Origin: a virus
Length of the DNA: 35,520 bases
Virus record (IMG/VR): IMGVR_UViG_3300032011_000051
Span: 1-35,520 of that record
Strand: one strand, 5' to 3'
A program made the translations under genes and the position numbers. Positions 11,397 to 29,197 of this stretch are shown here, one piece after another. Position 1 is the stretch's first letter. The number at the start of each line of letters is the position of its first letter. Under the pieces are notes generated by a model. It searched no databases, had not been told where the DNA came from, and saw nothing but the letters and a program-made list of their open reading frames with translations.

Positions 11397-12359
11397 ATGT
11401 CTAAAGAAATATTTATAAACACTGGTACTAGTTTTCAACAACAGTATATTGCGAGACAACCTGCGATTGGAACTGCTCCTATTACTGCACAATATGATGC
11501 ACAAGGAAATGCAAGTCAGCAGTCTCCGTTCACTTACGCTCACAGGTCACCGTTCACTTATAGAAATCCTGTAAATAGTCAGACACCTTATATCGCAAAC
11601 GCAAGACAACCTAACACTTACAGAAATCCTGTAAACAGTCAGTCTCCATATATTGCTAATAGTCAGACTCCATTTACATATGCACGACAAGCTCAAGCAA
11701 CGTATCCGTATGCTGCTAGCGACCAACAACCGTATCCTTACAATGCGAATAGTCAGACTCCATTTACCTATCAACACAGGACTCCGTTCACTTATAGAAA
11801 TCCTGTAAATAGTCAGACTCCGTTTAACTATCAGGCAAGACAGCCTGGAACTTATAGAAATCCTGTAAATAGTCAGACTCCATTTACATATAATCACAGG
11901 ACTCCGTTCACTTATAGAAGTCCTGTAAATAGTCAGACTCCATTTACATATAATCACAGGTCGCCATTTACCTATCAAGCAACAGGGACACAACCTTACA
12001 TTTACACATTCACTTCGAATGGAGATGTTACTAGATATGAACCTGGCGGAAAGATTAGTGTTTATTTTCAAGCAACAAATATGTCTCCAGCTTTGAGTCT
12101 AGATGGAGATAGTTTAACTGTTTATTCTCATCGTGACGGTGGTGGATTAAAATTATCTTGGAGTAGTCTTAACACTAACTGGACAACTTGTCGGATCGGG
12201 TCAAGTTCTTCAAATTATACTACATTAACAAGAACCACAGATTTTACTGTTACTGGCGGTATTCATCATACTGGGGCATCTCAAGGTGCCATTGTAGGCA
12301 GCCCGATTTATATTCCGAATAGTAATGGTGCATCTTTGTACTTTGCTTTACTAGGTTAA
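11397..12359 (+). CDS. Repeat fibre A: Pro/Tyr/Asn-rich repeats with C-terminal beta domain
   Basis: A 320-residue protein of unknown family. A short N-terminal cap (residues 1-38) precedes about 160 residues of repeats built from four-residue blocks: SQTP, FTYN, HRTP, FTYR, NPVN, ARQP, GTYR, YIAN. Residues 205-320 are non-repetitive and beta-rich (DVTRYEPGGKISVYFQATN, then SLTVYSHRDGGGLKLSW), plausibly a tip domain. No signal peptide is seen and I find no clear Shine-Dalgarno. The oxygenase gene begins one base after its stop codon. It sits among fibre genes and shares repeats with genes at 13113, 21162 and 22613. A virion fibre or adhesin is inferred. Confidence 0.65.
   Translation: MSKEIFINTGTSFQQQYIARQPAIGTAPITAQYDAQGNASQQSPFTYAHRSPFTYRNPVNSQTPYIANARQPNTYRNPVNSQSPYIANSQTPFTYARQAQATYPYAASDQQPYPYNANSQTPFTYQHRTPFTYRNPVNSQTPFNYQARQPGTYRNPVNSQTPFTYNHRTPFTYRSPVNSQTPFTYNHRSPFTYQATGTQPYIYTFTSNGDVTRYEPGGKISVYFQATNMSPALSLDGDSLTVYSHRDGGGLKLSWSSLNTNWTTCRIGSSSSNYTTLTRTTDFTVTGGIHHTGASQGAIVGSPIYIPNSNGASLYFALLG
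11512..11982 (+). repeat. 12-bp-lattice tandem repeats in repeat fibre A
   Basis: Blocks recur at multiples of 12 bp. The CACAGGACTCCGTTCACT block at 11775 returns at 11895 (120 bp), and an AGTCAGACTCCATTTACA block at 11872 returns at 11932 (60 bp). Synonymous differences between copies leave the peptide units unchanged. Confidence 0.85.
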
Positions 12360-12360
12360 C

Positions 12361-13113
12361 ATGAATAATTTAATATACAAATATACGATTGATAATCATA
12401 AAGAACTTAATAAGAGTCTTTTAGATTTCTTTGACGCTTTACCTACTCAAATTGGTAATCAAGATTATAATTTAGGAATTACTAAATTTGATGGGCATAA
12501 CCACCCTTCTTCCCCTATCTTACCAACAGGTTGGCAATACCAAGACTCAATTAATGATTATACTGGTGGTAGTGGAGATATTGATGAATGGGATATGAAT
12601 GTAAAGGGGTATCCTCATATAGAATATAAGAAAATGTTCTTAGATGCTGTAGAGAATAAATTTCATGACCACGCAAGGTTTCATATACAGCCAGAAATTA
12701 CTGGTTTAGAATATAAATTTAATATTATGCATATGTGGTATCACCAAATGTTTCAATCAGATTATATCAGTTGGGATAATCATCAATGGTGTCAATGGTC
12801 AGCAGTATATTTTATAGAAGTACCAAATCAAAAGTATATTACAGAATTTTTGAATCCTGAAACGCAAGAAATTATACAACCTAAAGCTGAGGAAGGAGAT
12901 ATGCTTATATTCCCTTCTTGGTTATTACACCGTGCCCCTAAAATGGAAACGAATGAACGTAAAAGTATTATAGCTTGGAACATGGACGTATGTTATGTAT
13001 TCCCGAAAAATCATATTAAGAGTTTAAAAGAGTCGCACCCAAATAATTGGAGTAATAACTATAAATATGAAGTCAAACAAGCAAAACAAGTAGACTATTT
13101 GGGGGTAGCGTAA
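12361..13113 (+). CDS. 2-oxoglutarate/Fe(II) oxygenase-like protein between two repeat-fibre genes
   Basis: A 250-residue protein resembling the putative 2OG-Fe(II) oxygenases (PF13759-like double-stranded beta-helix) of marine phages. Visible signatures are the first metal region SWDNHQWCQWSAVYFIEVP (D139, H141), the strand EGDMLIFPSWLLHRAP with distal H190, and NERKSIIAWN with the 2OG-binding Arg R200. The first motif reads D-x-H where relatives have H-x-D or H-x-H, so activity is likely but not certain. Its ATG is one base after repeat fibre A, and its stop TAA overlaps the ATG of repeat fibre B. These junctions suggest coupled expression with both. Hydroxylation of fibre Pro, Asn or Tyr is my inference; no substrate is shown. 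Confidence 0.7.
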   Translation: MNNLIYKYTIDNHKELNKSLLDFFDALPTQIGNQDYNLGITKFDGHNHPSSPILPTGWQYQDSINDYTGGSGDIDEWDMNVKGYPHIEYKKMFLDAVENKFHDHARFHIQPEITGLEYKFNIMHMWYHQMFQSDYISWDNHQWCQWSAVYFIEVPNQKYITEFLNPETQEIIQPKAEEGDMLIFPSWLLHRAPKMETNERKSIIAWNMDVCYVFPKNHIKSLKESHPNNWSNNYKYEVKQAKQVDYLGVA

Positions 13114-13829
13114 TGCCTATAGGACAACAACCATATCCATACCCTGCAATTGGACAGCAACCTTCTATTGGTAATGCGAGACAACCTAACACTTACAGAA
13201 ACCCTGTAAGTGGTCAACAACCGTCTATTGGTAATGCGAGACAGCCTGGAACTTATAGAAGTCCTGTAAATAGTCAGACACCTTATATCGCACAAGCAAG
13301 GCAGCCTGGAACTTATAGAAGTCCTGTAGCTGGACAACAACCGTCTATTGGTCAAGCGAGACAGCCAGGCATATATGTAAGACAGGGACGATTACCATTT
13401 ACATATTCTAGACAAGGGCAAGTAACGTATCCATATATTGCACAGGCAAGACAGCCTGGAACATATCAGTCAAGACAGCCTGGAACTTATAGAAGTCCTG
13501 TAAATAGTCAGACTCCGTTTACATATCAAAACAGACAGCCTGCAACTTATAGAAGTCCTGTAAGTGGACAACAACCTTATATCGCACAAGCAAGACAACC
13601 AAACATTTATCAGGTTCCCTATACGACACAGTACACATTCCAACAACCGTATGCATATCAGGTAACTTATCCAACAACTAGAACTATTGGGCCTCTTGCA
13701 AAAGTTAAAGGGGTATTCGTGAATGATGGTGGAACTTTAAGGAAGTTGGATAAAGTTTATGTGAACGATGGAACACCTACTGTAAAACAAATTCACCAAT
13801 CTGTTCCTTCGGCACAGTATCAAACATAA
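13113..13829 (+). CDS. Repeat fibre B
   Basis: A 238-residue protein almost entirely repetitive up to about residue 188. Its units include GQQPSIGNARQPNTYR, SPVNSQTPYIAQ and ARQPGTYR, the same alphabet as repeat fibre A, with only one Leu and no acidic residue or Lys in the tract. The C-terminus (about 190-238) has two VxVNDG strands, KGVFVNDGGTLRKLDKVYVNDG, a pattern common in phage fibre/head decoration proteins. The start overlaps the oxygenase stop (TAATG). Function is unknown; a fibre or virion-surface protein is inferred from paralogy and position. Confidence 0.65.
   Translation: MPIGQQPYPYPAIGQQPSIGNARQPNTYRNPVSGQQPSIGNARQPGTYRSPVNSQTPYIAQARQPGTYRSPVAGQQPSIGQARQPGIYVRQGRLPFTYSRQGQVTYPYIAQARQPGTYQSRQPGTYRSPVNSQTPFTYQNRQPATYRSPVSGQQPYIAQARQPNIYQVPYTTQYTFQQPYAYQVTYPTTRTIGPLAKVKGVFVNDGGTLRKLDKVYVNDGTPTVKQIHQSVPSAQYQT
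13116..13677 (+). repeat. Repeat tract of repeat fibre B
   Basis: Recurring blocks encode ARQPGTYRSPVNSQTP and GQQPSIG. A stretch near 13248-13276 is nearly identical to one near 11838-11880 in repeat fibre A, so repeats are shared between genes as well as in tandem. Confidence 0.8.
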
Positions 13830-13834
13830 TTTGG

Positions 13835-13842
13835 ACTAAATA
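13835..13842 (+). promoter_or_regulatory. Late promoter, predicted leaderless start for 13848
   Basis: ACTAAATA is followed by exactly five bases (GTAAT) and then ATG. By T4 late-promoter geometry (element at -13 to -6), RNA would begin at or next to the A of the start codon. No Shine-Dalgarno is present. Confidence 0.55.
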
Positions 13843-13847
13843 GTAAT

Positions 13848-14186
13848 ATGGCCATTATTGCAAATATTTTTATAGACCAAGGCGCAGATTTCTCAATAAC
13901 TGTAGATGTATCTGATGTAAATGGTAATCAGTTAAATTTAGCGGGATATACTGCGGCTGCACAAATAAGAAAGACCTATGAGTCTTCAACACTTAGTGCA
14001 ACTTTCACCACAGCTATATCAAATCCAACAACAGATGGTCAGGTAACTTTGTCCTTAACAGATACAATAACTAAGGCATTATCGCCAGGCAGATATGTAT
14101 ATGACTTGATAGTAACAGACGCTTCAAGTATATCTACTAGAGTAGTAGAGGGACAAGCAATTGTAACACCAGGCGTAACGAGGTAA
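13848..14186 (+). CDS. BppU-N-like Ig-fold fibre/baseplate protein
   Basis: A 112-residue single domain: FIDQGADFSITVDVSDVNGNQLNLAGYTAAAQIRKTYES, then GQVTLSLTDTITKALSPGRYVYDLIVTD and a C-terminal VTPGVTR. This is the pattern of the N-terminal domain of phage baseplate upper protein (BppU, PF10651-like), an Ig-like module that attaches receptor-binding parts to the virion. Here it stands alone. It is preceded five bases away by a late-promoter element and has no visible ribosome site. It probably serves as a fibre-attachment or decoration domain. Confidence 0.65.
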   Translation: MAIIANIFIDQGADFSITVDVSDVNGNQLNLAGYTAAAQIRKTYESSTLSATFTTAISNPTTDGQVTLSLTDTITKALSPGRYVYDLIVTDASSISTRVVEGQAIVTPGVTR

Positions 14187-14190
14187 TATT

Positions 14191-14433
14191 ATGGCAATTA
14201 AAGGAACATTAAGTAGAGTCGCAACTATAGGCGGAAACGTTGTTGGGGCAGGAAATGTTCGTGCAAAACAAGTCGCAATTGGTAACGCAAATACGACTGT
14301 TAGTTTAGCTGCGAAATCTATTCAGGAGTTAGCAGATGTAAACGCTTCTGAAACAGATGACGGACTTTTGACATATAATGCAACAACTGATAAGTGGGAA
14401 ACCACTACTAACCTTGACGGCGGTACTTTTTAA
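14191..14433 (+). CDS. Short fibre-like protein ending DGGTF
   Basis: An 80-residue protein: Gly/Ala/Val-rich N-half (IGGNVVGAGNVRAKQVAIGNAN), then IQELADVNASETDDGLLTYNATTDKWETT, a motif often seen in phage tail fibre proteins (a beta hairpin of the form GLLTYNA.T.KWE). The C-terminus DGGTF recurs at the end of the 14994 protein, with nearly identical DNA (GACGGCGGTACTTT), and as DGGTI at 18917. It starts four bases after the previous gene behind an AACGAGG ribosome site. Probably a small fibre adaptor or a fibre remnant kept as a separate gene. Confidence 0.55.
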   Translation: MAIKGTLSRVATIGGNVVGAGNVRAKQVAIGNANTTVSLAAKSIQELADVNASETDDGLLTYNATTDKWETTTNLDGGTF

Positions 14434-14449
14434 GATAGGAAGAAAATGA

Positions 14450-14833
14450 GTGAAATGGATATTTACAATATTGCTTCTTGTGTCTGCAGCTGGTAGCTGC
14501 GAACCTTTAAACGCAAAATCAAAAGACTGGACTGAAAAAGAAAGAAAGCTTTGGCATTCTTATATAGCCTTATCTACAATCGACACAATTCAGACAATAA
14601 GAATGATAGATTGTCAGAAACGACCACACTGTCCACTCGTAGAAAAGAATCCAATATTAGGTAAAAGACCTGAGAAGCATGATCTAATTGCTCTTAAACT
14701 CGTGGGCAATGCAATTATCTACAATCTGTTAGATAGAGATGATGTTGATAGAGAGAAAGCTCTCAAGTGGTTGAATGGTACTCAGGCATTTGTGGTAACA
14801 CATAATGGCTTCGCATGGTACAAAAGATTCTAA
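14450..14833 (+). CDS. Small exported protein (signal peptide, possible lipoprotein)
   Basis: A 127-residue protein starting at GTG 14450, preceded by AGGAAG (14439-14444); the nearby ATGs are in other frames. Residues 1-16 (MKWIFTILLLVSAAGS) are a signal sequence, and C17 gives a weak lipobox (A-G-S-C). The mature part has WHSYIALSTIDTIQTIRMIDCQKRPHC, then EKNPILGKRPEKH and an apolar helix (LIALKLVGNAIIYNLL). It does not resemble the fibre proteins around it. A periplasmic or membrane-associated role in lysis or host alteration is possible, but I do not recognise the family with confidence. Confidence 0.6.
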   Translation: MKWIFTILLLVSAAGSCEPLNAKSKDWTEKERKLWHSYIALSTIDTIQTIRMIDCQKRPHCPLVEKNPILGKRPEKHDLIALKLVGNAIIYNLLDRDDVDREKALKWLNGTQAFVVTHNGFAWYKRF

Positions 14834-14850
14834 TGTAGGCATTTCAATTG

Positions 14851-14858
14851 TCTAAATA
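14851..14858 (+). promoter_or_regulatory. Late promoter for the structured leader of 14994
   Basis: TCTAAATA, a T4-like late element, predicts an RNA start near 14864 and hence a leader of about 130 bases before the ATG at 14994, much longer than at the other late promoters here. Confidence 0.5.
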
Positions 14859-14863
14859 CTAGT

Positions 14864-14993
14864 ACAAACATCAAGGATACCAACCAGTGAGGTATCGACC
14901 CACATAGTGAGTGGACTGTTAAATTTATAATGTAATCACGACCTGAATAGTGCAAGGTCACAACAATAATTTAATTTTATAGGAAATATAAAA
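14864..14993 (+). promoter_or_regulatory. Structured 5' leader with three hairpins
   Basis: Three short stems follow one another: GATACC/GGTATC (14876-14881 with 14891-14896), CCAC/GTGG (14900-14903 with 14911-14914) and GACCT/AGGTC (14940-14944 with 14955-14959). The loops are alike (AACCAGTGA, ATAGTGA, GAATAGTGCA), each holding AGTG near its 3' side. A Shine-Dalgarno AGGAAA lies near 14981. No ORF of note is present. It could be a cis-regulatory or protein-binding leader, or a small RNA; I match it to no known class. Confidence 0.45.
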
Positions 14994-16634
14994 ATGGCAA
15001 CAGTAATTCAAATCAAACGAAGTACAGGAGCGAGTGCGCCAGCTACGAGTAATCTAGCAGAAGGCGAATTAGCATATGTACAGGATAGGTCGAATAGTGG
15101 TGCTGGGGCAAAACTATACATTGAGTCAGTAGATTCTGATAACTCTACGGCACTGATTCACGCAATCGGTGGTAAGTATTATACAGATATGCTTGCTGGT
15201 TCAAGTGCAACTCCTGCCAACTTTAAAGTTGGTAATAGTGCAACTGCAGGTGCGAGTCTTCAACTTTTAGAAGATTCAGATAACGGAACAAATTTTGTTG
15301 CGTTAAAAGCTGCTGATACTTTAGGTTCAAGTGTAACTTGGACATTGCCTTCTGCTGATGGTTCAGCTAACCAAGTTATCGGAACCAACGGCTCAGGAAC
15401 CCTTTCATTCCTATCAACAACATCAACAGTCGCAGGTGCAACAGATACTAATCTAACAACACCAGCTGACGGTTCAATGATGTTATACGATACAGGAACG
15501 TCTAAATGGATAGATAATATAATGTCAGGTGATGCTACTATGGCAGACACTGGTGTTCTAACAATCGCTGCTGGTGCAGTAGAGAATGCTATGTTAGCAG
15601 ACGACGCTGTCGGTGCTGACGAATTAGCAGCTTCTGCAGTTGTATTCGGTTCTTTAGCAGGCGCTTTAGTTCAGACTTCAGGTGAAGCATTCGCAGATAA
15701 CGATACAACCGTTATGACTTCTGCAGCTATCTTGGACAAAATCCAAGCAACTGCAACACTAGAAGACTTAGATGTCGCTGGTGATTCAGGAACAGGTGCA
15801 GTAGATTTAGACTCTCAATCATTAACAATCGCTGGTACAGCGAACGAAATTGAAACAAGTGCAAGTGGACAAACTATTACAGTAGGTCTACCTAACAACG
15901 TAACAGTTGGTGGAAACTTAACAGTAAGTGGAAACATGGTAACTGATGATATTACAACGGCAACGTTGACTACTTCAGGAAACTTAACAGTTACAGGTAA
16001 CTTGGCAGTTAATGGAACTACAACAACAGTTAACTCTACTACAGTTAATATCGCAGACCCAGTATTCGAAATCGGTTCTGATTCAAGTGATGATAACTTA
16101 GACAGAGGTATCAAATTTAAGTACAACTCAAGTGGTGCTAAAATTGGTTTCTTTGGTATGGACGATTCAACAGGTAAATTTGTCGCTCTTACAAGTGCAA
16201 CAGATACTTCATCAGTGTTCTCAGGAACAGCGATGCCTGCTGTATTTGGTGCATTAGAAATCAGTTCAGCTGCAATCACGGGTTCTATCTCATCTTATGC
16301 AGGTGGAGCTCCTACAGACGGACAGGTACTAATTGGTGATACATCGGGTGGAGTTTTTGATAAAGCAACACTTACTGCTGGTGACGGAATCGACATCACT
16401 AACGGTGCAGGTGCAATTACAATTGCAACTGAAGTATCCAGTGCTTCAAATCTAGGTTCTGTAATTATCGCAGTTGGAGAAGGTATGGACGTTGCGTACT
16501 CAGGTGGTACTGCTACTCTTTCAGGAGAGGATGCAACTACTGCTAATAAAGGTATCGCAAGTTTTGCTTCTGCAAACTTCACGGTAACTTCAGGTGCAGT
16601 CGCAATAACAGCTTTAGACGGCGGTACTTTCTAA
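14994..16634 (+). CDS. Tail fibre-like protein with Mtd-like N-terminus
   Basis: A 546-residue protein. The N-terminus (VIQIKRSTGASAPATSNLAEGELAYVQDR..KLYIES) has the phage fibre opening seen in Mtd_N-like domains, probably the virion-attachment part. Next comes LPSADGSANQVIGTNGSGTLSF, a module shared with 16659 and 17983. Further on is a shaft segment (LTVSGNM..LTVTGNLAVNGTTTTVNSTT), then IADPVFEIGSD..RGIKFKYNSSGAKIGFFGMDD, a widespread fibre domain. It ends ALDGGTF. No chaperone-type peptidase domain is visible at the C-terminus. Start: ATG 14994 with AGGAAA upstream and a long structured leader. Host recognition is inferred. Confidence 0.72.
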   Translation: MATVIQIKRSTGASAPATSNLAEGELAYVQDRSNSGAGAKLYIESVDSDNSTALIHAIGGKYYTDMLAGSSATPANFKVGNSATAGASLQLLEDSDNGTNFVALKAADTLGSSVTWTLPSADGSANQVIGTNGSGTLSFLSTTSTVAGATDTNLTTPADGSMMLYDTGTSKWIDNIMSGDATMADTGVLTIAAGAVENAMLADDAVGADELAASAVVFGSLAGALVQTSGEAFADNDTTVMTSAAILDKIQATATLEDLDVAGDSGTGAVDLDSQSLTIAGTANEIETSASGQTITVGLPNNVTVGGNLTVSGNMVTDDITTATLTTSGNLTVTGNLAVNGTTTTVNSTTVNIADPVFEIGSDSSDDNLDRGIKFKYNSSGAKIGFFGMDDSTGKFVALTSATDTSSVFSGTAMPAVFGALEISSAAITGSISSYAGGAPTDGQVLIGDTSGGVFDKATLTAGDGIDITNGAGAITIATEVSSASNLGSVIIAVGEGMDVAYSGGTATLSGEDATTANKGIASFASANFTVTSGAVAITALDGGTF

Positions 16635-16658
16635 GGTACTCATTAATAGGAGTCAAAA

Positions 16659-17480
16659 ATGGCAACAGTTATTCAATTCAAAAGGAGTTCTACACAGAAC
16701 GCCCTGCCAACTACGAGTGATTTATCACTTGGTGAGTTAGCAGTAAATACCTATCACGGTAGGTTTTACACTGAAAAAAATGACGGTTCAGCAGCCATTG
16801 TGGAAGTTGGGAGTAATCCTAAAACTTTTACTATCAATGATGCCTTAACGTTTCCGACAGCAGATGGAACAAGTGGACAAATCCTTTCAACAAACGGTTC
16901 AGGTACTATAGGTTTTACTGATGCAGCTTCATCAGGATTAACAACCTTTATCTATACTTGTACTGGGACACAAACAGTGTTCTCAGGTGCCGATGACAAC
17001 AGTGCTACTTTAGCATACACTGTTGGACTGGAAGGAGTTTACTTAAATGGTGTAAAACTAGTAGCAGGAAGTGACTATGTCACAACTTCAACTAGTGTAA
17101 TTACACTACAAGCAAATGCTGTGTCAGGAGACATCGTACAGGTTGTAGCGCAGACTTCAGTTTCAAACTTAGTTCAGGGGTATTATACTACTTCTGCTCT
17201 AACAGCGACAACTGCAAATCAAGTGTTAAGTTCGAACGGAGTAGCAAATAAGTCAATTAAATATGTCATATCTGCAACCCATTCAACAGGAACACACGCT
17301 GCTGAAGTATTATTAATAAACAACGGTACGAATGCGTATTTCACTCAATACGGTGATGCATACTCAGCGTCTTCACTATTTACTTTATCTTCGGATATCA
17401 ATAGTGGAAACATGAGATTGCTAACAACACCTGCGAATACAAATACAACATTCAAAACCTTCCAAATTAGATTAACATAG
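16659..17480 (+). CDS. Tail fibre-like protein, Mtd-like N-terminus and shared C-domain
   Basis: A 273-residue mosaic of three modules. The N-terminus VIQFKRSSTQNALPTTSDLSLGELAVNTYHGRFYTEK is Mtd_N-like and paralogous to 14994. The middle FIYTCTGTQTVFSGADDN..GVYLNGVKLVAGSDY repeats the module of the 10152 protein. The C-terminal ~75 residues (IKYVISATHSTGTHAAEVLLINNG..INSGNMRLLTTPANTNTTFK) are shared with the next two fibre genes. Start: ATG 16659 behind AGGAG. It is probably co-transcribed with 14994 and 17493, ending at the terminator at 17924. Confidence 0.7.
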   Translation: MATVIQFKRSSTQNALPTTSDLSLGELAVNTYHGRFYTEKNDGSAAIVEVGSNPKTFTINDALTFPTADGTSGQILSTNGSGTIGFTDAASSGLTTFIYTCTGTQTVFSGADDNSATLAYTVGLEGVYLNGVKLVAGSDYVTTSTSVITLQANAVSGDIVQVVAQTSVSNLVQGYYTTSALTATTANQVLSSNGVANKSIKYVISATHSTGTHAAEVLLINNGTNAYFTQYGDAYSASSLFTLSSDINSGNMRLLTTPANTNTTFKTFQIRLT

Positions 17481-17492
17481 GAGAATTAACAA

Positions 17493-17903
17493 ATGGCTAA
17501 GACAAATAGTTTTAAAATCGCTGAGTTAATTCGTGGTATTCAGTTTGATGTCGCAACAGATGTTATAACTACTACTAAACATATTAACTCTAAAAGTAAG
17601 AAGGTTGGTAACCAAACTAAAACGTCAACAGCACAATTCAGTTTAGATACATTTTCGAAAACAGATTATCGAGCTGCAAGATACATTATTGCAATGAGTC
17701 AAGGTACAAACTTTCACTCAACTGAAATAATGTTGGTGCAAGACGGTTCAGTAGTCACATTAACTGCATATGGTACTTTAAAAGATACCAACCTTGCAAC
17801 AATTGATGCTGATATTAGTGGTTCAAATGTTCGTTTATTGGTCACGCCTGCGAGTAATACCTCAACGGTCATCAAATTTGATAGAACATTGGTAGATGCT
17901 TAA
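17493..17903 (+). CDS. Fibre tip-like protein consisting mainly of the shared C-domain
   Basis: A 136-residue protein. After a short N-terminal piece (AKTNSFKIAELIRGIQFDV), residues about 50-136 match the C-terminal domain of 16659 and 17983: YRAARYIIAMSQGTNFHSTEIMLVQDG..DADISGSNVRLLVTPASNTSTVIKF. It is thus close to a free-standing copy of that domain, possibly a tip or decoration subunit. Start: ATG 17493 with AGGAG six to ten bases upstream. It is the last gene before a strong terminator. Confidence 0.65.
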   Translation: MAKTNSFKIAELIRGIQFDVATDVITTTKHINSKSKKVGNQTKTSTAQFSLDTFSKTDYRAARYIIAMSQGTNFHSTEIMLVQDGSVVTLTAYGTLKDTNLATIDADISGSNVRLLVTPASNTSTVIKFDRTLVDA

Positions 17904-17923
17904 TCTTCAATAAATCATGATTT

Positions 17924-17955
17924 AAAGGGGCTCTTCGGAGTCCCTTTTCTTTTCT
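17924..17955 (+). terminator. Intrinsic terminator with UUCG tetraloop
   Basis: AAAGGGGCTC (17924-17933) pairs with GAGTCCCTTT (17938-17947), ten pairs with one G-U, closing a C(UUCG)G tetraloop and followed by a T-rich tail to 17955. It lies 21 bases after the 17493 gene and is the clearest factor-independent terminator in the window. Confidence 0.92.
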
Positions 17956-17969
17956 GCATACTTTTAAAG

Positions 17970-17977
17970 TATAAATA
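17970..17977 (+). promoter_or_regulatory. Late promoter, predicted leaderless start for 17983
   Basis: A perfect TATAAATA is followed by GTACT and then ATG 17983, immediately after the terminator. RNA would start at about the A of the start codon, and there is no Shine-Dalgarno. Confidence 0.7.
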
Positions 17978-21116: not shown

Positions 21117-21124
21117 TATAAATA
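21117..21124 (+). promoter_or_regulatory. Late promoter before the Hint repeat fibre
   Basis: A perfect TATAAATA lies nine bases after the 19150 gene. The predicted leader is about 32 bases and includes AAGG (about 21149) before ATG 21162. Confidence 0.7.
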
Positions 21125-21161: not shown

Positions 21162-22613
21162 ATGGCAACAGGAAAACAACACGTCAAAACACCTACAGGT
21201 TGGAATGCCACACAAGGTGCGTGGGTAAAGACGGGTGGAACGACTTGGAAAGCTGCAGAACAGGTTTATGTAAAGACTGGGCCTTCCACTTGGAATAACG
21301 CTTCGGGTCAGACTTCAGTTCAACAACCTTATCCATACATTGCTAATAGTCAGACTCCAAGTATTGCGAACGCACAACAACCTTATCCATACATTGCTAA
21401 TAGTCAGACCCCAAGTATTGCGAATAGACAAAATCCGTACCCTTATATAGCAAATGCTCAAGCTCCAAGTATTGCGAACGCTCAACAACCTTACCCGTAT
21501 ATAGCAAGCAATCAGACCCCAAGTATTGCGAATAGACAAAATCCTTACCCGTATATAGCAAGTAATCAGACTCCATATATTGCGAATAGACAAAATCCTT
21601 ATCCGTATATTGCGAGCAATCAAACACCATATATTGCTAATGCACAACAACCTTATCCGTATATTGCTAGTCAACCTACAACATATGCAAGACAAGGTCA
21701 GACACCTAGTACATATCAAAACAGGAATCCATTTACCTATAGAAGTCCTGTAAGCGCACAGCAACCTTATATCGCAAACGCAAGACAGCCTGGAACATAC
21801 AGACACCCATTTACATACAGAGTTCCTTATATCGCAAACGCAAGACAGCCTGGAACATACAGAAACCCATTTACATATAGGGTTCCTTATATTGCTAATG
21901 CAAGAAATCCATTCACATATAGAAACCCATTTACATACAGGGTTCCTTATATCGCAAACGCAAGACAACCATACATTGCTAATGCAAGACAGCCTGGAAC
22001 ATATAGAAACCCATTTACATACAGAGTTCCTTATATAGCAAACAGTCAGAATCCATTTACCTTTCAACAGAGGACACCAGTTTCGTATGCATATCGTAAT
22101 CCATACACTTATCCGTATGGTGGCGGTGGTGGTGGGTGTTTCATTGCTGGAACACAAATTTTGATGGCTGATAACAATCATATGAACATAGAAAACGTTA
22201 ATGTTGGAGATGCAGTAATGACATTTGACTTTAGTCATGGTAAACTTATGCCTCAGAATGTTACTGAGGTCATGGTTCCAAGAGAAAACATAAAAGTTTG
22301 GAACGTAGAATTATCAAATGGAAAAACACTAGGTGTAACAGGTGGACACCCAATACACACTGATTCAGGTTGGAAATATGCGAATCAGGAAGAGTGTGAT
22401 ATTGAGTTAAAAGACGTTGATTGGGGAATAGAACTAAGTGGAGAACTCGCAGTAGGAGACGAAGTCTTTACAGTTGGTCAATCAGGGGTAACAGTTAACT
22501 CCATAACAGAAAATGGAACTGCTACAGTCTATCATTTAACTTCCGTTGAACACACTAAAACATACTTTACAGAAGGTGTGTTAGTTCATAACGGCGGGGG
22601 GAATAAAAGATAA
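21162..22613 (+). CDS. Repeat fibre C with C-terminal Hint autoprocessing domain
   Basis: A 483-residue protein in three parts. Residues 1-50 carry three VKTG strands (GAWVKTGGTTWK, QVYVKTGPSTWN), a phage virion-protein pattern. Residues 52-318 are Pro/Tyr repeats (QQPYPYIANSQTPSIAN early, then 20-residue units containing YIANARQPGTYRNP). After six glycines comes a Hint domain, residues 326-477. It has Cys326 as first residue (CFIAGTQILM), the VGDAVMTFD strand, the block-B motif TGGHPIHT with TxxH, and a final YHLTSVEHTKTYFTEGVLVHN ending His476-Asn477. The next residue is Gly, not Cys/Ser/Thr, and only GGGNKR follows. This suits cleavage or ligation at Cys326 rather than canonical splicing. 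Its stop overlaps the next ATG. Confidence 0.82.
   Translation: MATGKQHVKTPTGWNATQGAWVKTGGTTWKAAEQVYVKTGPSTWNNASGQTSVQQPYPYIANSQTPSIANAQQPYPYIANSQTPSIANRQNPYPYIANAQAPSIANAQQPYPYIASNQTPSIANRQNPYPYIASNQTPYIANRQNPYPYIASNQTPYIANAQQPYPYIASQPTTYARQGQTPSTYQNRNPFTYRSPVSAQQPYIANARQPGTYRHPFTYRVPYIANARQPGTYRNPFTYRVPYIANARNPFTYRNPFTYRVPYIANARQPYIANARQPGTYRNPFTYRVPYIANSQNPFTFQQRTPVSYAYRNPYTYPYGGGGGGCFIAGTQILMADNNHMNIENVNVGDAVMTFDFSHGKLMPQNVTEVMVPRENIKVWNVELSNGKTLGVTGGHPIHTDSGWKYANQEECDIELKDVDWGIELSGELAVGDEVFTVGQSGVTVNSITENGTATVYHLTSVEHTKTYFTEGVLVHNGGGNKR
21318..22115 (+). repeat. Repeat tract of repeat fibre C, 60-bp period in its second half
   Basis: From about 21765 to 22040 the DNA repeats every 60 bp (20 residues); CCTTATATCGCAAACG recurs at 21765, 21825 and 21945, with a diverged copy at 21885. 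The first half uses shorter units encoding QQPYPYIAN and SQTPSIAN. The tract has no Asp, Glu, Lys, Leu, Cys, Met or Trp. Confidence 0.88.
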
Positions 22614-23473
22614 TGGCAATCGGACAAGCACAACAACCAGTAATCGCTAATACCCAGCAACCTGCCATTGCTTCAGCTAGGCAGCCTGGAACTTATAACG
22701 CAAGGTATCCTGCTAATGGACAGTCTCCTAGTAATAGTCAGAGTCCATTTACCTATAACGCAAGGACTCCGTATACCTATAACGCAAGGTATCCTGCGAA
22801 TGCTCAGTCTCCTAGTAATGCGAGACAACCGTTCACATATAACGCAAGGTATCCTGCTAATGGACAGTCTCCTAGTAATAGTCAGAGTCCATTCACATAT
22901 AACGCAAGGTATCCTGCGAACGCAAGACAACCTAGTAATAGTCAGAGTCCGTTCACATATAATAATAGGAGTCCATTTACCTATAGGAATCCTGTAGCTG
23001 GACAACAACCTTATATTGCGAATAGACAAAATCCATATCCATATATTGCTAGTCAACCTACAACATATGCGAGACAAGGACAGACTCCATTTACATATAG
23101 TAATAGGCAGCCAGGAACGTATGCTAGACAAGGTCAGACACCTACTACATATCAAAACAGACAGCCTGGCACATATGCTAGACAAGGTCAAACACCTACT
23201 ACATATCAACATAGAACGCCTGGCACATATGCGAGACAAGGTCAAACACCATTTACCTATCAACATAGAACACCAAGTACATATGCTAGACAAGGTCAAA
23301 CACCAACGACTTATCAACATAGAACGCCTGGCACATATGCAAGACAAGGTCAGACACCGTTCACATATCAACATAGGACGCCTGGAACTTATGCCCGACA
23401 AGGTAGAACACCAGTCATTAGGTGGGATAGTACACTATCTCAACAATGGCCTGCTACACCAGTTACAAGTTAA
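22613..23473 (+). CDS. Repeat fibre D
   Basis: A 286-residue protein that is repetitive nearly end to end. The first half uses units such as TYNARYPANGQSPSNSQSP; the second uses an 18-residue unit, GTYARQGQTPTTYQHRTP, repeated about six times with a perfect 54-bp spacing in places. Until about residue 266 it contains no Asp, Glu, Lys, Leu, Cys, Trp or internal Met, so it is strongly basic through Arg. Only the last 20 residues (VIRWDSTLSQQWPATPVTS) differ. It has neither the Hint domain of its upstream paralogue nor the tip domain of repeat fibre A. The start overlaps the 21162 stop (TAATG). The function is not recognised; a fibre partner of the Hint protein is possible. Confidence 0.62.
   Translation: MAIGQAQQPVIANTQQPAIASARQPGTYNARYPANGQSPSNSQSPFTYNARTPYTYNARYPANAQSPSNARQPFTYNARYPANGQSPSNSQSPFTYNARYPANARQPSNSQSPFTYNNRSPFTYRNPVAGQQPYIANRQNPYPYIASQPTTYARQGQTPFTYSNRQPGTYARQGQTPTTYQNRQPGTYARQGQTPTTYQHRTPGTYARQGQTPFTYQHRTPSTYARQGQTPTTYQHRTPGTYARQGQTPFTYQHRTPGTYARQGRTPVIRWDSTLSQQWPATPVTS
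22616..23415 (+). repeat. Repeat tract of repeat fibre D, 54-bp period in its second half
   Basis: TATGCTAGACAAGG occurs at 23120 and 23174, 54 bp apart, with further diverged copies to 23400. A segment near 23042 (ATATTGCTAGTCAACC and following) is almost identical to one near 21660 in repeat fibre C. Confidence 0.88.
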
Positions 23474-23484
23474 TTCTTGTAACT
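23461..23484 (+). terminator. 9-bp hairpin at the end of repeat fibre D
   Basis: AGTTACAAG (23461-23469) and CTTGTAACT (23476-23484) are perfect inverted repeats with a six-base loop. The stem spans the stop codon, and its right arm overlaps the next late promoter. It lacks a T-run, so it may be a weak terminator, an RNA end-stabilising stem or a regulatory element. Confidence 0.4.
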
Positions 23485-23489
23485 AAATA
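23482..23489 (+). promoter_or_regulatory. Late promoter before the glycosyltransferase fusion
   Basis: ACTAAATA gives a predicted RNA start near 23495, directly on the AAAAGGA ribosome site of ATG 23507. Confidence 0.5.
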
Positions 23490-23506
23490 TTGAAAAGGAT
23501 TATATT

Positions 23507-25027
23507 ATGGAAAAAATTACTACACTAGAGCAAGCTCAATCTCTTATCACCAAAGAAACTATGGACGCCTTACATTTAGGTTCCCTTAATATTGGTGAAA
23601 CAGATAAAGAATCATATAAAATCATACAGTGGTTGTTTGAAGAAATTCTTCCACCACTTAAAATCTTTAAATGGGGTGATACACTTCAATTAAGAAAAGA
23701 AAAAAGATTCATGAGTTTTAATGGTCTATTAGATAAGTCTAATTATTATCATAGGTATCTTCCTCATGGTTATTCTAGTTTAAACATGGTGGGAAATCAC
23801 GCAGGATTCGGATTCCAAAAAGAAGATGAAGAAGTTAACATTTTAGATACTGTTGTAAATGTTAGACCGTCTCATAAAGAAGACCCAAGAGTAAAAGAAG
23901 TAGTAGGTTCTTGTTATTACCATAGTGCAAAAGCACACTGGTTAACTCAAAGTATTCAAGAAGAAGGACTTTGGGCACCAATTCAAGGTTATACAACAAA
24001 TCCAGTTGATGACCTAATTCAATTAACAATCCACCCAGGCTCTGTTCGTTCTTGCGTATTTGAAGAAATGGAAAATGACGATATGGAGTGTATGATATGG
24101 GATAAGACTGGACAACTCTCAGATTTTCCAAGTACAACACTTGATGAAGTATTAGAGTATTGGGGCGATAAACTAGACAAAAGAGGAAGACATAAAAATA
24201 TTGCATTCCAACTATGTCGGGGTGTGATAGAATGGCAAACAGATTTAGCAGAACTTGGATTTAGAGATGATGTCTTTAAGTTTAATAAAAAGGTTCATAA
24301 ACTTTCTGCAGGTAAACCACTAACCGTTTATATCGGTTATGATAGTACAATGAATGATTTAGAGAAAGTGTGTGAAAAGTCAATCACACAAACAATCTCA
24401 GATGCACATTCACTGGGTGAGTTTCAAGAGTACACTAGATTTAGTCCAACCATTAAATTGCTTGACATTTCTAAACTTCCCGATTATAATAGGGAGTACG
24501 CAAATCAAAGTACTGAATTTACATACAGTAGATTTCTTATACCACACTTAGAGAACTATGAAGGGTTTAGTCTATTTGTGGATAACGATTTTATATTTAA
24601 GAAGTCATTACTACCTATGTTCTATTATCTAAATCCTGATGATGCAGTTGCGTGTATCAAATACCCACAATATAAACATGACGAGTCTAAGTTCAATGGA
24701 GAAGTAAACATAGATTATCCATGTAAATTGTGGTCTTCAATGATGTTTTTCAACAACAGTCATGAGGACTGTAAGAAGTTAACACCTGAAGTTGTGAACA
24801 CTTGGACAGGAAAACAACTACATCAGTTCGAATGGACTAATGCAATATCTGAAATACCTCAAAAATATATATTTGTCGAAGGTTATGACAACCCTGAAGA
24901 GAAGTGGGATTACACTGGGATTCATTACACTAGGGGCGGGCCTTGGATAAATGATATGAATTTTGACTCTATAAATAATCTTGAAGTATACAACAAGTAC
25001 AAAAACCTCTATGACTCCACGCAATAA
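23507..25027 (+). CDS. ParB-like region fused to a GT-A (GT8-like) glycosyltransferase
   Basis: A 506-residue two-part protein. Residues about 115-215 contain VNVRPSHKEDPRVKEVV, LTQSIQEEGLWAPIQGY and HPGSVRSCVF (H176-R181). This order recalls ParB/sulfiredoxin-like domains with a HPGxxR-type motif, although the assignment is tentative. Residues about 270-500 look like a GT-A glycosyltransferase: LTVYIGYDSTMNDL at the start of the fold, STEFTYSRFLIPHL, then SLFVDNDFIF with a DxD motif (D359, D361) for metal and nucleotide-sugar binding, and the late GIHYTRGGPW segment. Start: ATG 23507 with AAAGGA upstream and its own late promoter. It follows four repeat fibres, so glycosylation of fibres is a reasonable inference; host surface or phage DNA are other possible acceptors. 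Confidence 0.65.
   Translation: MEKITTLEQAQSLITKETMDALHLGSLNIGETDKESYKIIQWLFEEILPPLKIFKWGDTLQLRKEKRFMSFNGLLDKSNYYHRYLPHGYSSLNMVGNHAGFGFQKEDEEVNILDTVVNVRPSHKEDPRVKEVVGSCYYHSAKAHWLTQSIQEEGLWAPIQGYTTNPVDDLIQLTIHPGSVRSCVFEEMENDDMECMIWDKTGQLSDFPSTTLDEVLEYWGDKLDKRGRHKNIAFQLCRGVIEWQTDLAELGFRDDVFKFNKKVHKLSAGKPLTVYIGYDSTMNDLEKVCEKSITQTISDAHSLGEFQEYTRFSPTIKLLDISKLPDYNREYANQSTEFTYSRFLIPHLENYEGFSLFVDNDFIFKKSLLPMFYYLNPDDAVACIKYPQYKHDESKFNGEVNIDYPCKLWSSMMFFNNSHEDCKKLTPEVVNTWTGKQLHQFEWTNAISEIPQKYIFVEGYDNPEEKWDYTGIHYTRGGPWINDMNFDSINNLEVYNKYKNLYDSTQ
24970..24977 (+). promoter_or_regulatory. Possible late promoter inside 23507 for downstream genes
   Basis: A perfect TATAAATA lies inside the 3' end of the GT gene, 85 bases before ATG 25062. 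It could drive the 25062-29197 enzyme group, but AT-rich coding DNA can produce this octamer by chance. Confidence 0.35.
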
Positions 25028-25061
25028 TATGGTATAATAGAGAGATTATAGGAAAATTATT

Positions 25062-25631
25062 ATGAATGTAAAAAACGCTTTAATATTCACGGAAGATAGC
25101 AACCTCTTTGTCAGAAAACCTAACGGATTGGAATACGAATTTCAAAATGTCGACAAACCTGAATTAGGGTTTGAATATGATATGTTGGTGTATGATGATA
25201 TAGAAATCAAAATCATGAAGTGGGACAGAGAACAAAATTTTGATATGCAAGAAAAACTAGACCTATCTGATGCAGAAAAAGAAATGGTTGAACAGTATAT
25301 TGCAAATTCAGAACCACCTTTGGGAACTAATTTAAACAATCAACTTATGTCAAGGTTAAATGAACAGGTTGGAGATTATCTAAAAGAAACTATTGATATG
25401 CATGGTTTTAGTGATTTAGGTGAGGTTACTTTTGCAGGTAGAGAGGGTTCTAACCACCCATTTAGGTCTAATGCAAGAAGGGTTATGGAATATGGTGATG
25501 CACTATACAGTGTATTAGACCAAATATGTGCAGAAATTAAAGCAACTCGTGAAGATACTTTAAAGGAATTGGACGAGTATTCAATGCATATACCAGCACC
25601 AACTAAACTGCCAGACCACCAACAGAGTTAG
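25062..25631 (+). CDS. Possible tail-fibre-assembly-like protein
   Basis: A 189-residue protein. Residues 1-60 form a beta-rich part (ALIFTEDSNLFVRKPNGLEYEF, YDMLVYDDIEIKIMKW). The rest is helical: LSDAEKEMVEQYIANSEPP, then DMHGFSDLGEVTFAGREGSNHPFRSNARRVMEYGDALYSVLDQICAEIKA. The last stretch has the HGF..(S)...F...A....YGDALY..LDQI layout seen at the C-termini of many phage fibre-assembly/chaperone-like proteins. That similarity is a pattern judgement, not a confirmed match. ATG 25062 has AGGAAA upstream. It precedes a dioxygenase with only one base between stop and start. Confidence 0.45.
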   Translation: MNVKNALIFTEDSNLFVRKPNGLEYEFQNVDKPELGFEYDMLVYDDIEIKIMKWDREQNFDMQEKLDLSDAEKEMVEQYIANSEPPLGTNLNNQLMSRLNEQVGDYLKETIDMHGFSDLGEVTFAGREGSNHPFRSNARRVMEYGDALYSVLDQICAEIKATREDTLKELDEYSMHIPAPTKLPDHQQS

Positions 25632-25632
25632 T

Positions 25633-26343
25633 ATGGAGATTGTTCATTTAGATGAACCTTTCAAAATACAGACTTTACCCTTAACAAAAGTTTATGTATT
25701 AGATGATTGGTTGGCTCAACCATTACATCATCATTATGATGAAAGAATCTCTCTTGATAACATATGGAGTAAGACAAATCAAGTCAGTAGTGGTTCTTCA
25801 ACTGGTTTACCACACCATAGTTTTTGGGGTGCAACATTTTTTAGAAACTTTCATAAAATCGATAAAGATGTCAGAATCGAAGACACTTGGTTTACAAATT
25901 ACTTAGATAGAAGACTTCAAACTGAGTTTGGTTTTAAATGGGTAAGGTTTCAATACGCAGGCCTAAATAGTCAGACTCAAGGATTACAGGGAACTACACA
26001 TCAAGATTGTGCAGAAGAAGACAGTTGGAATCTTTCATTTCTATATTACCCAAATAGATATTGGAATCCTGCGTGGGGTGGAACATTAAGATTATATGAT
26101 AAACCTCAACAGGGTTTAGACGGTAGAGATGAACATATTAAGAATCACCAAATAGGTGAGATTGATTTTAAACCAAATAGACTTATTATGTTTGACGGAA
26201 GAATACCACATGGTGCAGATGCACCCGACCCAAGTTCGAGGTACATGGATAGACGTTCATTAGTGGTTCGTGGAGACGAGGTCAGATTAGAAGAAGAGGG
26301 GGAAAATTATCATGCCGATGATAGACTTTCATACATACGATAA
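25633..26343 (+). CDS. 2OG-Fe(II) dioxygenase, prolyl-4-hydroxylase-like
   Basis: A 236-residue enzyme of the P4H-type 2OG/Fe(II) family. The facial triad is complete: THQDC with H123-x-D125, the distal H193 in MFDGRIPHGADAP, and the 2OG-binding basic residue at R207/R208 in DRRSLVV. Between them are the expected core strands WNLSFLYYPNRYWNPAWGGTLRLYD and IDFKPNRLIMF. These enzymes hydroxylate Pro or other side chains using O2, Fe(II) and 2-oxoglutarate. The ATG at 25633 follows the 25631 stop by one base, and the 3' end overlaps the next gene by 32 bases. With proline-rich repeat fibres just upstream, they are the obvious candidate substrates; that link is inference. Confidence 0.8.
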   Translation: MEIVHLDEPFKIQTLPLTKVYVLDDWLAQPLHHHYDERISLDNIWSKTNQVSSGSSTGLPHHSFWGATFFRNFHKIDKDVRIEDTWFTNYLDRRLQTEFGFKWVRFQYAGLNSQTQGLQGTTHQDCAEEDSWNLSFLYYPNRYWNPAWGGTLRLYDKPQQGLDGRDEHIKNHQIGEIDFKPNRLIMFDGRIPHGADAPDPSSRYMDRRSLVVRGDEVRLEEEGENYHADDRLSYIR

Positions 26344-27223
26344 AGAAACTTTAAAGAATTTTAAACCAGTTCTTGCAAAGTCTGTTACACCTGATTGGTG
26401 GAAAAAAGGAAAGGTCGCAGAAGTTGTAAACGGTGTAGTTAATAAGACTATAAGGTCTTGTCCTGCAATGCAAGATTGGTTATCTTCAGGGTATCTTATT
26501 CTTGCAAATAGAGATATATTAATAAGAAACGGTGTAACAAATGAAGATTCTGATTCTAAATCTTATCACACTGAAGATACAGTCCATGTTGAAATGGAGA
26601 AATATTCATCTGCAACACACCCTAGTATACAAATGCATGATGCATTTAACTATATGTCTACTATGGATGCACCAGTCAAAGATGCATTCAAAATGTCTAA
26701 TGCATGGTGTATAACTACACCACCAGGCTATTCTTGTTTCTACTTAGACCCTTTCTTATTTCAGAATGATTACTTTGCGACATGGCAAGGTATTATTGAT
26801 ACTGATAAGTTTAATACAAATAAAGACAATTCACAAATTATTCTATACCCCAAAGTAGACCATTCATTTGTTATAACAAAGGGTACACCTATTTGTCAAA
26901 TCATTCCATACAAAAGAGAAGAATGGGTTGCGACATATACTGTTAAAGACCATGAGTCTTATGTAACTAATCAATCAAAATACACTACAGAACACCCTGA
27001 TAAACGTATGACGGTGACTGAGTTATCTAGGATAGGTTTTGGAGATGAATCCACTCATATGGCAGGCCCTTATAAAAGAGGGAAAGTTTGGGAACCAAAA
27101 CATAAGGATTTCAAAGAAGATTTAACAGAATGTCCTTTTGACCCTAATACTGGTGAAATGAAGAAAGACTTTAAAGAAGAACAACTAAAAAGAACGGATT
27201 TAAATTGGGACGGACAAGAGTGA
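26312..27223 (+). CDS. Conserved phage protein with dUTPase-like beta signature (DUF6065-like)
   Basis: A 303-residue protein. It has WWKKGKV, then TIRSCPAMQDWLSSGYLILANRDI, FKMSNAWCITTPPGYSCFYLDPFLF, GIIDTDKF and HSFVITKGTPICQIIPYKREEW. The order TPPGYS, then G(I)IDTD, then F.I.KG.PI.QIIP.KR recalls the beta-barrel core of dUTPase/dCTP deaminase proteins (GVID.DY..., F.V..GDRIAQL), but the catalytic motifs are not evident. I associate the overall pattern with a DUF6065-like phage family of unknown function. The C-terminal 60 residues are Lys/Glu-rich. ATG 26312 lies within the preceding gene behind a GAGGGGG site. Its stop overlaps the next start (GTGA). Confidence 0.55.
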   Translation: MPMIDFHTYDKETLKNFKPVLAKSVTPDWWKKGKVAEVVNGVVNKTIRSCPAMQDWLSSGYLILANRDILIRNGVTNEDSDSKSYHTEDTVHVEMEKYSSATHPSIQMHDAFNYMSTMDAPVKDAFKMSNAWCITTPPGYSCFYLDPFLFQNDYFATWQGIIDTDKFNTNKDNSQIILYPKVDHSFVITKGTPICQIIPYKREEWVATYTVKDHESYVTNQSKYTTEHPDKRMTVTELSRIGFGDESTHMAGPYKRGKVWEPKHKDFKEDLTECPFDPNTGEMKKDFKEEQLKRTDLNWDGQE

Positions 27224-28497
27224 ATATACTAAATTTAAATCTTCCTCGTTGTCATTTTCATACTTTGATAGAATTAGTAAATTCTGGCCATACAGTTTAC
27301 AGTAATTGGACGTATGTAAATGAATACGAATCTTCTCTTGGTATAACCCCTTTAACTGAAGAAGAAAATCGTAGGGTAACTGGTCTTGGTAAGTATTCGC
27401 CAGAAAGAGTGGAAGATATACCCATTCAAATAAGTGAAAAAAGAAAGATAGAATCATGTGCATTTATAGAAGGACTTATTGATAAGTACAACATTGATAT
27501 TCTTCAAGTCTGTATTCCTGATATATCTTTTTTACATACCTATTTTAAAGATAAAGTTAAGTACATAGGCCCAACAGAAAAATCAGGTCGTCTAGAAACA
27601 GACAAGTTATTTGCAAAAGATACAGCTAAGCAACTTGGGGTAAGGGTTCCTAATATTGTTAAACACGGAAAATATTTAGATGAAGATTATTGTGAGGGAC
27701 TTTCCTTTCCATGTGTAGAGAAAGCCTCTCATATTTGGTATCCTGCAATAGTGATTAATAGTGAGGAAGACATAAAACCCCTTAAAGATTTGAATACCAA
27801 CCCTGAATGGCCGAGATGTATAAATGCAGATTATTTCATAGAAGAATATTTGCATGATATGATAGAAACAAATGTATTCTTTGTAGTTTCAAATGGAGAA
27901 TATTCTATAACTCATACCCAAGAGATAATAGGTGAGGGGTTGAATAAAGGTGTAATCCCACAAGTATGGTATTTCGACACATATGTGAAACCATTAAGTC
28001 CTTCCGTAGATAAGATAGTCAGAAAAGAGTCTGAAAAATATTTAGAACATATCGCTAAAATGGGTGGAAGTTGGGAAGGAAGTTTTTGTGGTGCCTACAC
28101 TTCTAAAGGAGAATGGTATTTCTTAGAACTGAATGTAAGACCTGATATATTTAATAGTACACCTACATTTATGACTGGTGATGAATATCTAAAAGGTATG
28201 TTTGAAGATGTATCACTGTTTGAAAAGGCTTGGGAAAACAAAGATTGTAGAAAGTATTTAATTACAAGTGATAGTGATAAAAATGAGTACCCTATATATC
28301 TGCATGATAAGTATAATGTTGCTTATCCTAATAATTTGTCTATAAAAGACAACAAATATTATATTAGTGAGTATGGTGTAGGAAACATCAGTGATAGAGG
28401 AACGGTTATATCAGACCACAATATTCCAATAGAATTTCTAAAAGAAGTTGAAGAAACAACTGTATGGAAGTTCAACAGAGACCCAAATGGCAGTTAG
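27220..28497 (+). CDS. ATP-grasp family ligase
   Basis: A 425-residue protein. The N-terminal part (INLNLPRCHFHTLIELVNSGHTVY-like strand-helix, then IDILQVCIPD) is a Rossmann-like pre-ATP-grasp domain. KYIGPTEKSGRLETDKLFAKDTAKQLGVRVPNIV is the classic entry to an ATP-grasp fold, as in PurD or carbamoyl-phosphate synthase. Later come YFIEEYLHD and WYFLELNVRPD, where E and N would bind the metals. These enzymes form C-N or C-S bonds through an acyl phosphate. The start is taken as GTG 27220, overlapping the previous TGA, rather than the in-frame TTG 27205. The substrate is unknown. It ends 11 bases inside the next dioxygenase gene, suggesting a linked pathway. Confidence 0.65.
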   Translation: MNILNLNLPRCHFHTLIELVNSGHTVYSNWTYVNEYESSLGITPLTEEENRRVTGLGKYSPERVEDIPIQISEKRKIESCAFIEGLIDKYNIDILQVCIPDISFLHTYFKDKVKYIGPTEKSGRLETDKLFAKDTAKQLGVRVPNIVKHGKYLDEDYCEGLSFPCVEKASHIWYPAIVINSEEDIKPLKDLNTNPEWPRCINADYFIEEYLHDMIETNVFFVVSNGEYSITHTQEIIGEGLNKGVIPQVWYFDTYVKPLSPSVDKIVRKESEKYLEHIAKMGGSWEGSFCGAYTSKGEWYFLELNVRPDIFNSTPTFMTGDEYLKGMFEDVSLFEKAWENKDCRKYLITSDSDKNEYPIYLHDKYNVAYPNNLSIKDNKYYISEYGVGNISDRGTVISDHNIPIEFLKEVEETTVWKFNRDPNGS

Positions 28498-29197
28498 ATT
28501 ACTATTCCCAACTTATGTATTCCATAGGAACTTCACGCAAGAAGGCTTACCTGAAGATAAGGGATTTTCAAAAGAATATTGTCTAATGTTGCGAAACGAA
28601 ATGGACGCCATGAGAAGAAGAGACCCAAAAGGAAGACAACTCTCTAATCAATATACAGGTTGGCAATCAAAAGATGGGTGCGAAAGAAGCCCAACTTTTC
28701 AGAAATGCATGAATAGAATAGAACAATTTTTTATTGACGAAGTAATGCCTTTTCATGGACTTAAACCTTCAGAGTGTAAGTTAGATATAAACAATTCATG
28801 GGCAAACATTAACAATAATGGTGCTTGGAACGCACCACATTTACATAATGGTTGTTGGTATAGTGGTGTATTCTATATTCATGGAGACGGTGACGAGGGT
28901 CGTATATCAATGATTGATACGCATCAAAAGGTGGCTGCAGATTTTCCACATAGTCTTAGAACACCAACTTCTTCATATTTTGAACCCTATACTGGTGAGT
29001 GTATATTATTCCCAAGTGGTCTCATGCACATGGTAGAACCCAACCCAACAAACAAAGAGAGATATAGTATATCTTTTAATTGTACCTTAAAATATCTAAA
29101 CGATGATGCAATATTTTGTAAAGGTCTTGAAGCTGATAACTATAACCCCGATGAGTTTTTATTTGATATAGATGATAAAGGGAACGCAATTAGATAG
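28487..29197 (+). CDS. 2OG-Fe(II) oxygenase-like protein (PF13759 type)
   Basis: A 236-residue protein starting MAVRLLFPTYVFHRNF, a start common in this phage/marine family. The in-frame TTG at 28448 gives a longer form but lies deep in the upstream gene and is less likely. Metal and cosubstrate residues are visible: APHLHNGCWYSGVFYIHG (H118-x-H120), GECILFPSGLMHMVEPN (H181) and KERYSISFN (R192). This matches the putative 2OG-Fe(II) oxygenase family in which H-x-H replaces H-x-D. It overlaps the ATP-grasp gene by 11 bases. It is the third dioxygenase-like gene in the window, and its substrate is unknown. Confidence 0.78.
   Translation: MAVRLLFPTYVFHRNFTQEGLPEDKGFSKEYCLMLRNEMDAMRRRDPKGRQLSNQYTGWQSKDGCERSPTFQKCMNRIEQFFIDEVMPFHGLKPSECKLDINNSWANINNNGAWNAPHLHNGCWYSGVFYIHGDGDEGRISMIDTHQKVAADFPHSLRTPTSSYFEPYTGECILFPSGLMHMVEPNPTNKERYSISFNCTLKYLNDDAIFCKGLEADNYNPDEFLFDIDDKGNAIR

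Follow-up and report, generated by a model that had tools for sequence, protein, structure and literature searches.

The window analysed here, the whole 35,520-base stretch of DNA, is one complete IMG/VR virus record (IMGVR_UViG_3300032011_000051) and comes from the structural gene region of a T4-like myovirus. It encodes four repeat proteins, named A, B, C and D, and a block of genes that follows C and D. The block consists of a glycosyltransferase fusion (GT), a conserved protein (Y), a prolyl-4-hydroxylase-like (P4H-like) 2-oxoglutarate (2OG) oxygenase (OX2), a protein X, a second 2OG oxygenase (OX3) and a small protein (h), and it ends at the phage neck genes. All of these genes are on the plus strand. 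A sequence-only reading had proposed that the enzymes modify the repeat proteins as fibres. Here, we show that this gene block is real and deeply conserved, and that it joins putative fibre genes of an unusual repeat to enzyme genes.

The repeat proteins are encoded by 11397..12359 (A), 13113..13829 (B), 21162..22613 (C) and 22613..23473 (D), and the four Pro/Tyr/Asn/Gln/Arg repeats described previously were recovered there. Motifs of the type [RQ]xP occur 14, 15, 18 and 21 times in A, B, C and D, respectively, far above the 0.4-1.1 found in shuffles of each protein. In A, an unbroken even-register run spans residues 20-192 (11454-11972) and is followed by a globular C-terminal domain of about 115 residues. 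The repeat runs of B and D consist of residues 5-181 (13125-13655) and 7-269 (22631-23419), while that of C, residues 54-316 (21321-22109), is followed by a poly-Gly segment and a Hint domain. A single register is held throughout the run of 173-263 residues in all four proteins. Across 145 non-redundant proteins, 4731 of the 4805 spacings between successive [RQ]xP sites are even (98.5%). The first face of the chain is composed of Pro (27.8%), Gln (20%), Thr (12%), Arg (12%), Asn (10%) and Ile (9%), and the second of Tyr (22%), Ala (17%), Ser (9%), Gln (9%) and Phe (8%), with 0.0% Pro. Most units span 6, 8 or 10 residues, with first-face letters [RQ]P[TN], [RQ]P[TI]N and QPPIN; the Pro column is fixed by the unit's own definition. 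Among unit pairs, 60% disagree in the third base of the Pro-column codon, and units with an identical peptide differ on average by 1.8 of 24 nucleotides. The repeat copies are therefore not merely recent duplicates.

The even spacings and the presence of Pro on one parity rule against a collagen-like or polyproline-II repeat, which has a three-residue period, and the two-residue register argues for a predicted extended β-type fibre, against these chains and against disordered ones. Intertwined β-fibres of the T4 gp5C/VgrG type, which have a VxGxxxxx octapeptide repeat, share with the window repeats short even-length units and alternating faces. In the window, however, the units are a mixture of 6, 8 and 10 residues and contain Pro. 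No family that explains the repeats was found in PDB, Pfam or PHROG. Repeat D matched no PDB chain at E values up to 10, repeat B had no match among isolate phages (INPHARED), and the repeat D patterns detected no repeats in GTDB genomes. A match of repeat A to Cementoin was rejected as compositional (25.5 bits, below the cut-off of 27). Matches of repeat D in Pseudomonas and Vibrio phages were also rejected; in the two that were inspected, the repeat is an unrelated one, SAASNTG, and the motif score is zero. In Vibrio phage 1.185.O (MG592551; L357:1541-1758), an annotation of 'CRISPR spacers' covers a SAASNTG repeat that codes for protein, and is probably a misannotation.

The C-terminal part of repeat C, residues 326-483 (22137..22610), is a Hint/intein-like domain that the earlier reading overlooked. 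It matches the Vint profile with 30.3 bits, above the cut-off of 27. The N-terminal Cys, the His block and the C-terminal His-Asn of such domains are all present: Cys1 stands right after Gly6, the His block reads HPIH, and the terminal His-Asn is followed by Gly. The domain was found in 35 distinct proteins of relatives. Some lineages have it and others do not, and the latter often encode a protein of 86-100 residues between C and D.

The GT gene (23507..25027) encodes a GT-A/GT8-like domain with a DxD motif at residues 359-361, to which an N-terminal domain that looks ParB-like by eye is fused. The GT8 profile PF01501 scored below its cut-off (19.8 against 24.3 bits). A match to phrog_28018 (E value 7e-42) and the invariance of D359-x-D361 in 11 aligned rows support the predicted GT-A domain, and with it the proposed glycosyltransferase fusion. 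Y (25062..25631) has no match in Pfam, PHROG or INPHARED, and it is present in 105/105 distinct relatives that have GT and neck genes. X (26312..27223) has a weak DUF6065 match and the motifs GIIDTD and GTPxCQIIP, which by eye resemble those of dUTPases. Its AlphaFold2 model has a mean predicted local distance difference test (pLDDT) score of 84 with 87 sequences (33 with 10 rows). Structural matches to this model reach VIA Z 9.2 over 119-129 residues, with dUTPases in all the top rows, and Foldseek gives E 0.005 to dUTPases. The Pfam dUTPase profile reaches only E 0.16, in one family member; X is a candidate dUTPase-like (β-clip) fold. Both Y and X lie inside the block and had been overlooked. 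Throughout the clade, the small protein h (29219..29479) is encoded between OX3 and the neck gene.

Three genes had been described as 2OG/Fe(II) oxygenase-like, and all three pass Pfam cut-offs of 27 bits. OX1 (12361..13113; phrog_81), which lies between A and B, matches PF13759 (2OG-FeII_Oxy_5) with 39.7 bits, while TIGR02466 remains below its cut-off (41.2 against 62.5 bits). OX3 (28448..29197) passes both, with 71.3 bits for PF13759 and 94.7 bits for TIGR02466. OX2 (25633..26343) matches PF13640 (2OG-FeII_Oxy_3) with 33.4 bits and prolyl 4-hydroxylase 6t8m from the PDB with an E value of 0.002. The complete H-x-D...H...R set previously noticed in OX2, H123-x-D125...H193...R203, is invariant in all 10 aligned relatives, which makes OX2 a convincing candidate P4H-like enzyme. 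The iron site of OX3 reads HLH or HKH, HxH in place of HxD, with no HxD/E, and OX1 has no HxD/E within the aligned stretch; neither predicted site is the textbook triad. In another marine phage, Synechococcus phage Sf-CH1b (L358), a run of P4H/2OG dioxygenase genes directly follows a tail-collar gene, a further case of oxygenases beside fibres.

Relatives were gathered with queries that are not biased to the repeats, namely neck, GT, OX2 and X. The order GT-Y-OX2-X-OX3-h-neck, with GT preceded by a repeat gene, is found in 99 of 105 distinct relatives. Of the other six, two have the ATP-grasp gene, two have one added gene, which is 2OG-like by eye and has no Pfam match, and two have a split GT. 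No member of the block was lost in any of the 105, whereas accessory genes come and go. A repeat gene precedes GT in 189 of 195 rows, and the other rows are mostly contig starts. The earlier reading would have been contradicted by repeats that frequently occur without any of the enzymes. On this point it was borne out: GT, Y, OX2, X, OX3 and h are present in all 77 distinct relatives whose repeats come with sufficient upstream sequence.

The accessory genes tell a different part of this history. The segment repeat A-OX1-repeat B had been put forward as the tightest evidence for the association. The one-base gap between A and OX1 and the TAATG overlap between OX1 and B are indeed present, and TAATG also occurs at the junction of C and D. 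However, A and B are directly adjacent, without an oxygenase, in 24 distinct relatives; six others have a single repeat gene at this site, and two have a small gene between A and B. OX1 lies between A and B in the window species only, so this strongest evidence is lineage-specific, a private insertion. The proposed ATP-grasp ligase gene is at its reported place (27205..28497), but the assignment is putative, with no Pfam match and phmmer matches to biotin carboxylase (E 0.005) and PurD (E 0.03) that are weak. It is an accessory gene, present in the block in 2/105 distinct relatives, the window species and one close relative. Among the fibre genes of some relatives there is an amidinotransferase-like gene (L013:11310-12212, L208:1551-2432), and the L013 copy matches inosamine-phosphate amidinotransferase with an E value of 1e-30. 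Furthermore, 16 of 84 lineages have a gene like those of protein arginine methyltransferases (PRMT-like) before the large terminase gene, with the small gene g32479 on one side and gp17 on the other (e.g. L045:9367-10128, L307:18419-19213). It matches PRMT1 and PRMT3 in the PDB (E 4e-12 and 3e-9), and it is absent from the window.

A box TATAAATA, which we take to be the T4 late-promoter consensus, is located at 21117..21124, 45 bp before repeat C. Such boxes number nine on the plus strand of the window and one on the other strand, and a CTAAATA variant stands before GT. The next box that precedes a gene start is at 29492, ahead of the neck genes, so the genes from repeat C to OX3 are probably one late unit, as predicted from the consensus match. 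The genes of the block are tightly spaced, with overlaps.

Around these genes, the window has a gp8-like gene (start 1734), a VrlC-like gene (3255-9935) that matches VrlC of Pelagibacter phage HTVC008M, gp13/gp14-type neck genes (starts 29534 and 30354), a gp15-like gene (start 31426), the large terminase gene (start 32880) and the sheath gene (start 34563). The gp14 and terminase proteins have 37-45% identity to their counterparts in HTVC008M and cyanophage P-TIM40. Among the 11 long contigs of the clade, none has psbA, and ten have a gene for CsgG, the curli secretion channel, which has been reported as typical of pelagimyophages (PMC7029224). By these sequence markers, the clade, a widespread marine one, appears to be pelagimyophage-like, and its members are candidate relatives of SAR11 phages. 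CsgG sits in the same phages as the N/Q/Y-rich repeat proteins.

The HTVC008M-like sister clade shares neck, gp15, gp17 and gp18 with the window clade, and in it the repeats and the block are absent together. Among distinct necks, 77 come with all seven members, and 11, from sister phages, come with none except stray oxygenases. A tree built from 104 neck proteins explains the block by one change, with support of 100/99. Co-occurrence was for this reason rejected as statistical proof: with a single origin, it gives no independent support for an action of the enzymes on the fibres. Repeats C and D diverge in step with GT to a degree that goes beyond the backbone (partial r 0.34, 0/500 permutations). 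Since the unlinked repeats A and B do not covary with it, linkage is enough to explain this signal.

Of the single readings of the block, fibre modification is the likeliest, although we hold it tentatively and place it somewhat short of an even chance. According to this reading, the repeat proteins most likely serve as shafts or linkers in the host-recognition fibres of a pelagimyophage-like phage. Their chain would be extended, in a two-residue register with a Pro/Gln/Arg/Thr/Asn/Ile face and a Tyr/Ala/Ser/Phe face without Pro, which fits a β-type fibre. Late transcription would probably take in repeats C and D together with the genes that follow them. OX2, and perhaps OX3, would make hydroxyl acceptors before or during folding of the shaft, and GT would then add sugar to the fibre proteins. 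In many lineages, the Hint domain of protein C may cleave or transfer its C-terminus. OX1 and the ATP-grasp protein would be optional additions, and X and Y are assigned no role in the scheme. In favour of fibre modification, we count the invariant catalytic set of OX2 and the DxD of GT, and a fixed gene order where other pelagimyophages are hypervariable (PMC7029224). The entry of extra enzymes into the region in single lineages (OX1 in the window, the amidinotransferase, the PRMT-like methyltransferase) is counted here as well, and so are the joint absence of repeats and block from the sister clade, the covariation of repeats C and D with GT, the even register and the mimivirus precedent described below.

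Several observations weigh on the other side. The block was gained once, a single, unreplicated event, and the unlinked repeats A and B show no significant covariation with GT or OX2 (0.09). The Arg content of the repeats shows no difference between lineages with and without the PRMT-like gene (0.089 vs 0.094). Oxygenases of the 2OG type are common in the genomes of the clade, with 2-6 PF13759 matches per contig. HTVC008M has four 2OG/phytanoyl-CoA dioxygenase genes between fibres and neck, without such repeats; they occupy the same genomic place as the window block but are on the opposite strand, and this phage has no counterpart of the repeat proteins, GT, Y, OX2 or X. Finally, X, as a predicted dUTPase-like protein, is no obvious protein modifier, which weakens the idea of a block made up entirely of protein modifiers.

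Two rivals are serious. The first holds that GT, with helpers, alters the host surface polysaccharide during infection, blocking superinfection or rebinding to the receptor, and that the neighbourhood of the fibres reflects a joint host-recognition cluster rather than an enzyme acting on its substrate. It is possible, if on the unlikely side. A survey of pelagimyophages reads GT8-type enzymes between VrlC and the neck as host-surface modifiers (PMC7029224), and isolate relatives of the GT domain adjoin genes for sugar or group transfer (KdsA/KdsB, amidinotransferase and 2OG oxygenases in S-SCSM2R; methyltransferases in Mosig). However, GT is fixed directly behind a fibre gene in essentially all relatives, is probably transcribed late and is fused to another domain, unlike lipopolysaccharide (LPS) gene sets, which vary between phages. 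The second rival, which we regard as rather unlikely, assigns no common task to the block: it would simply be core gene order that descends from a single ancestor, and OX2, OX3 and X would serve nucleotide, DNA or 2-oxoglutarate metabolism. Cyanophage 2OG oxygenases, which adjoin the replication genes gp44/gp45, a neighbourhood that also counts against fibre modification, have been proposed to act in the 2OG/nitrogen response or in DNA repair (PMC3037559). The single origin, the predicted dUTPase fold of X and the disappearance of repeat-GT covariation for unlinked repeats agree with this rival, while the retention of every member in 105 relatives, the tight spacing with overlaps and an expected late rather than early expression oppose it. 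DNA hypermodification, in which a 2OG oxygenase hydroxylates a base, GT glucosylates it and dUTPase-like X shapes the nucleotide pool, would recall the hydroxylate-then-glycosylate logic of TET/JBP systems on DNA bases, but it is very improbable, as OX2 and OX3 belong to P4H/Oxy_5 families with no match to a TET/JBP family and the genes belong to the late structural region and not to that of replication.

Known systems place fibre modification in context. Like the host recognition cluster (HRC) of pelagimyophages, the window block is located between VrlC and the neck genes and has fibres and a GT8-like enzyme; the published HRC is nonsyntenic between phages (PMC7029224), whereas the window clade, a deep one, keeps fibre-GT-Y-OX2-X-OX3 in unchanged order. 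Mimivirus is reported to encode a lysyl hydroxylase and collagen glucosyltransferases, a viral collagen modification (PMC9546862). It likewise pairs a viral 2OG hydroxylase and glycosyltransferase with repetitive structural proteins. The likeness is one of working principle only. The mimivirus enzymes are of other families, and the window repeat has a two-residue register with Pro on one face in place of Gly-X-Y.

The register rule defines a fibre sequence class without a match in PDB, Pfam or PHROG, and it yields structural predictions. A stronger proposal, which we consider improbable, is that the repeat proteins would be fibrous virion proteins of a new class, chains in a two-residue register with all prolines on one edge, matured by dedicated late enzymes through hydroxylation, glycosylation and Hint processing. 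If true, the logic of maturation would be comparable to that of extensin or of mussel adhesive proteins, but in a phage. The 2OG oxygenases and GTs of marine T4-like phages have so far been filed as metabolic or LPS genes, and a block locked to one fibre type offers them a concrete, testable substrate. The hosts of these CsgG-bearing, pelagimyophage-like phages may be among the most abundant bacteria of the ocean.

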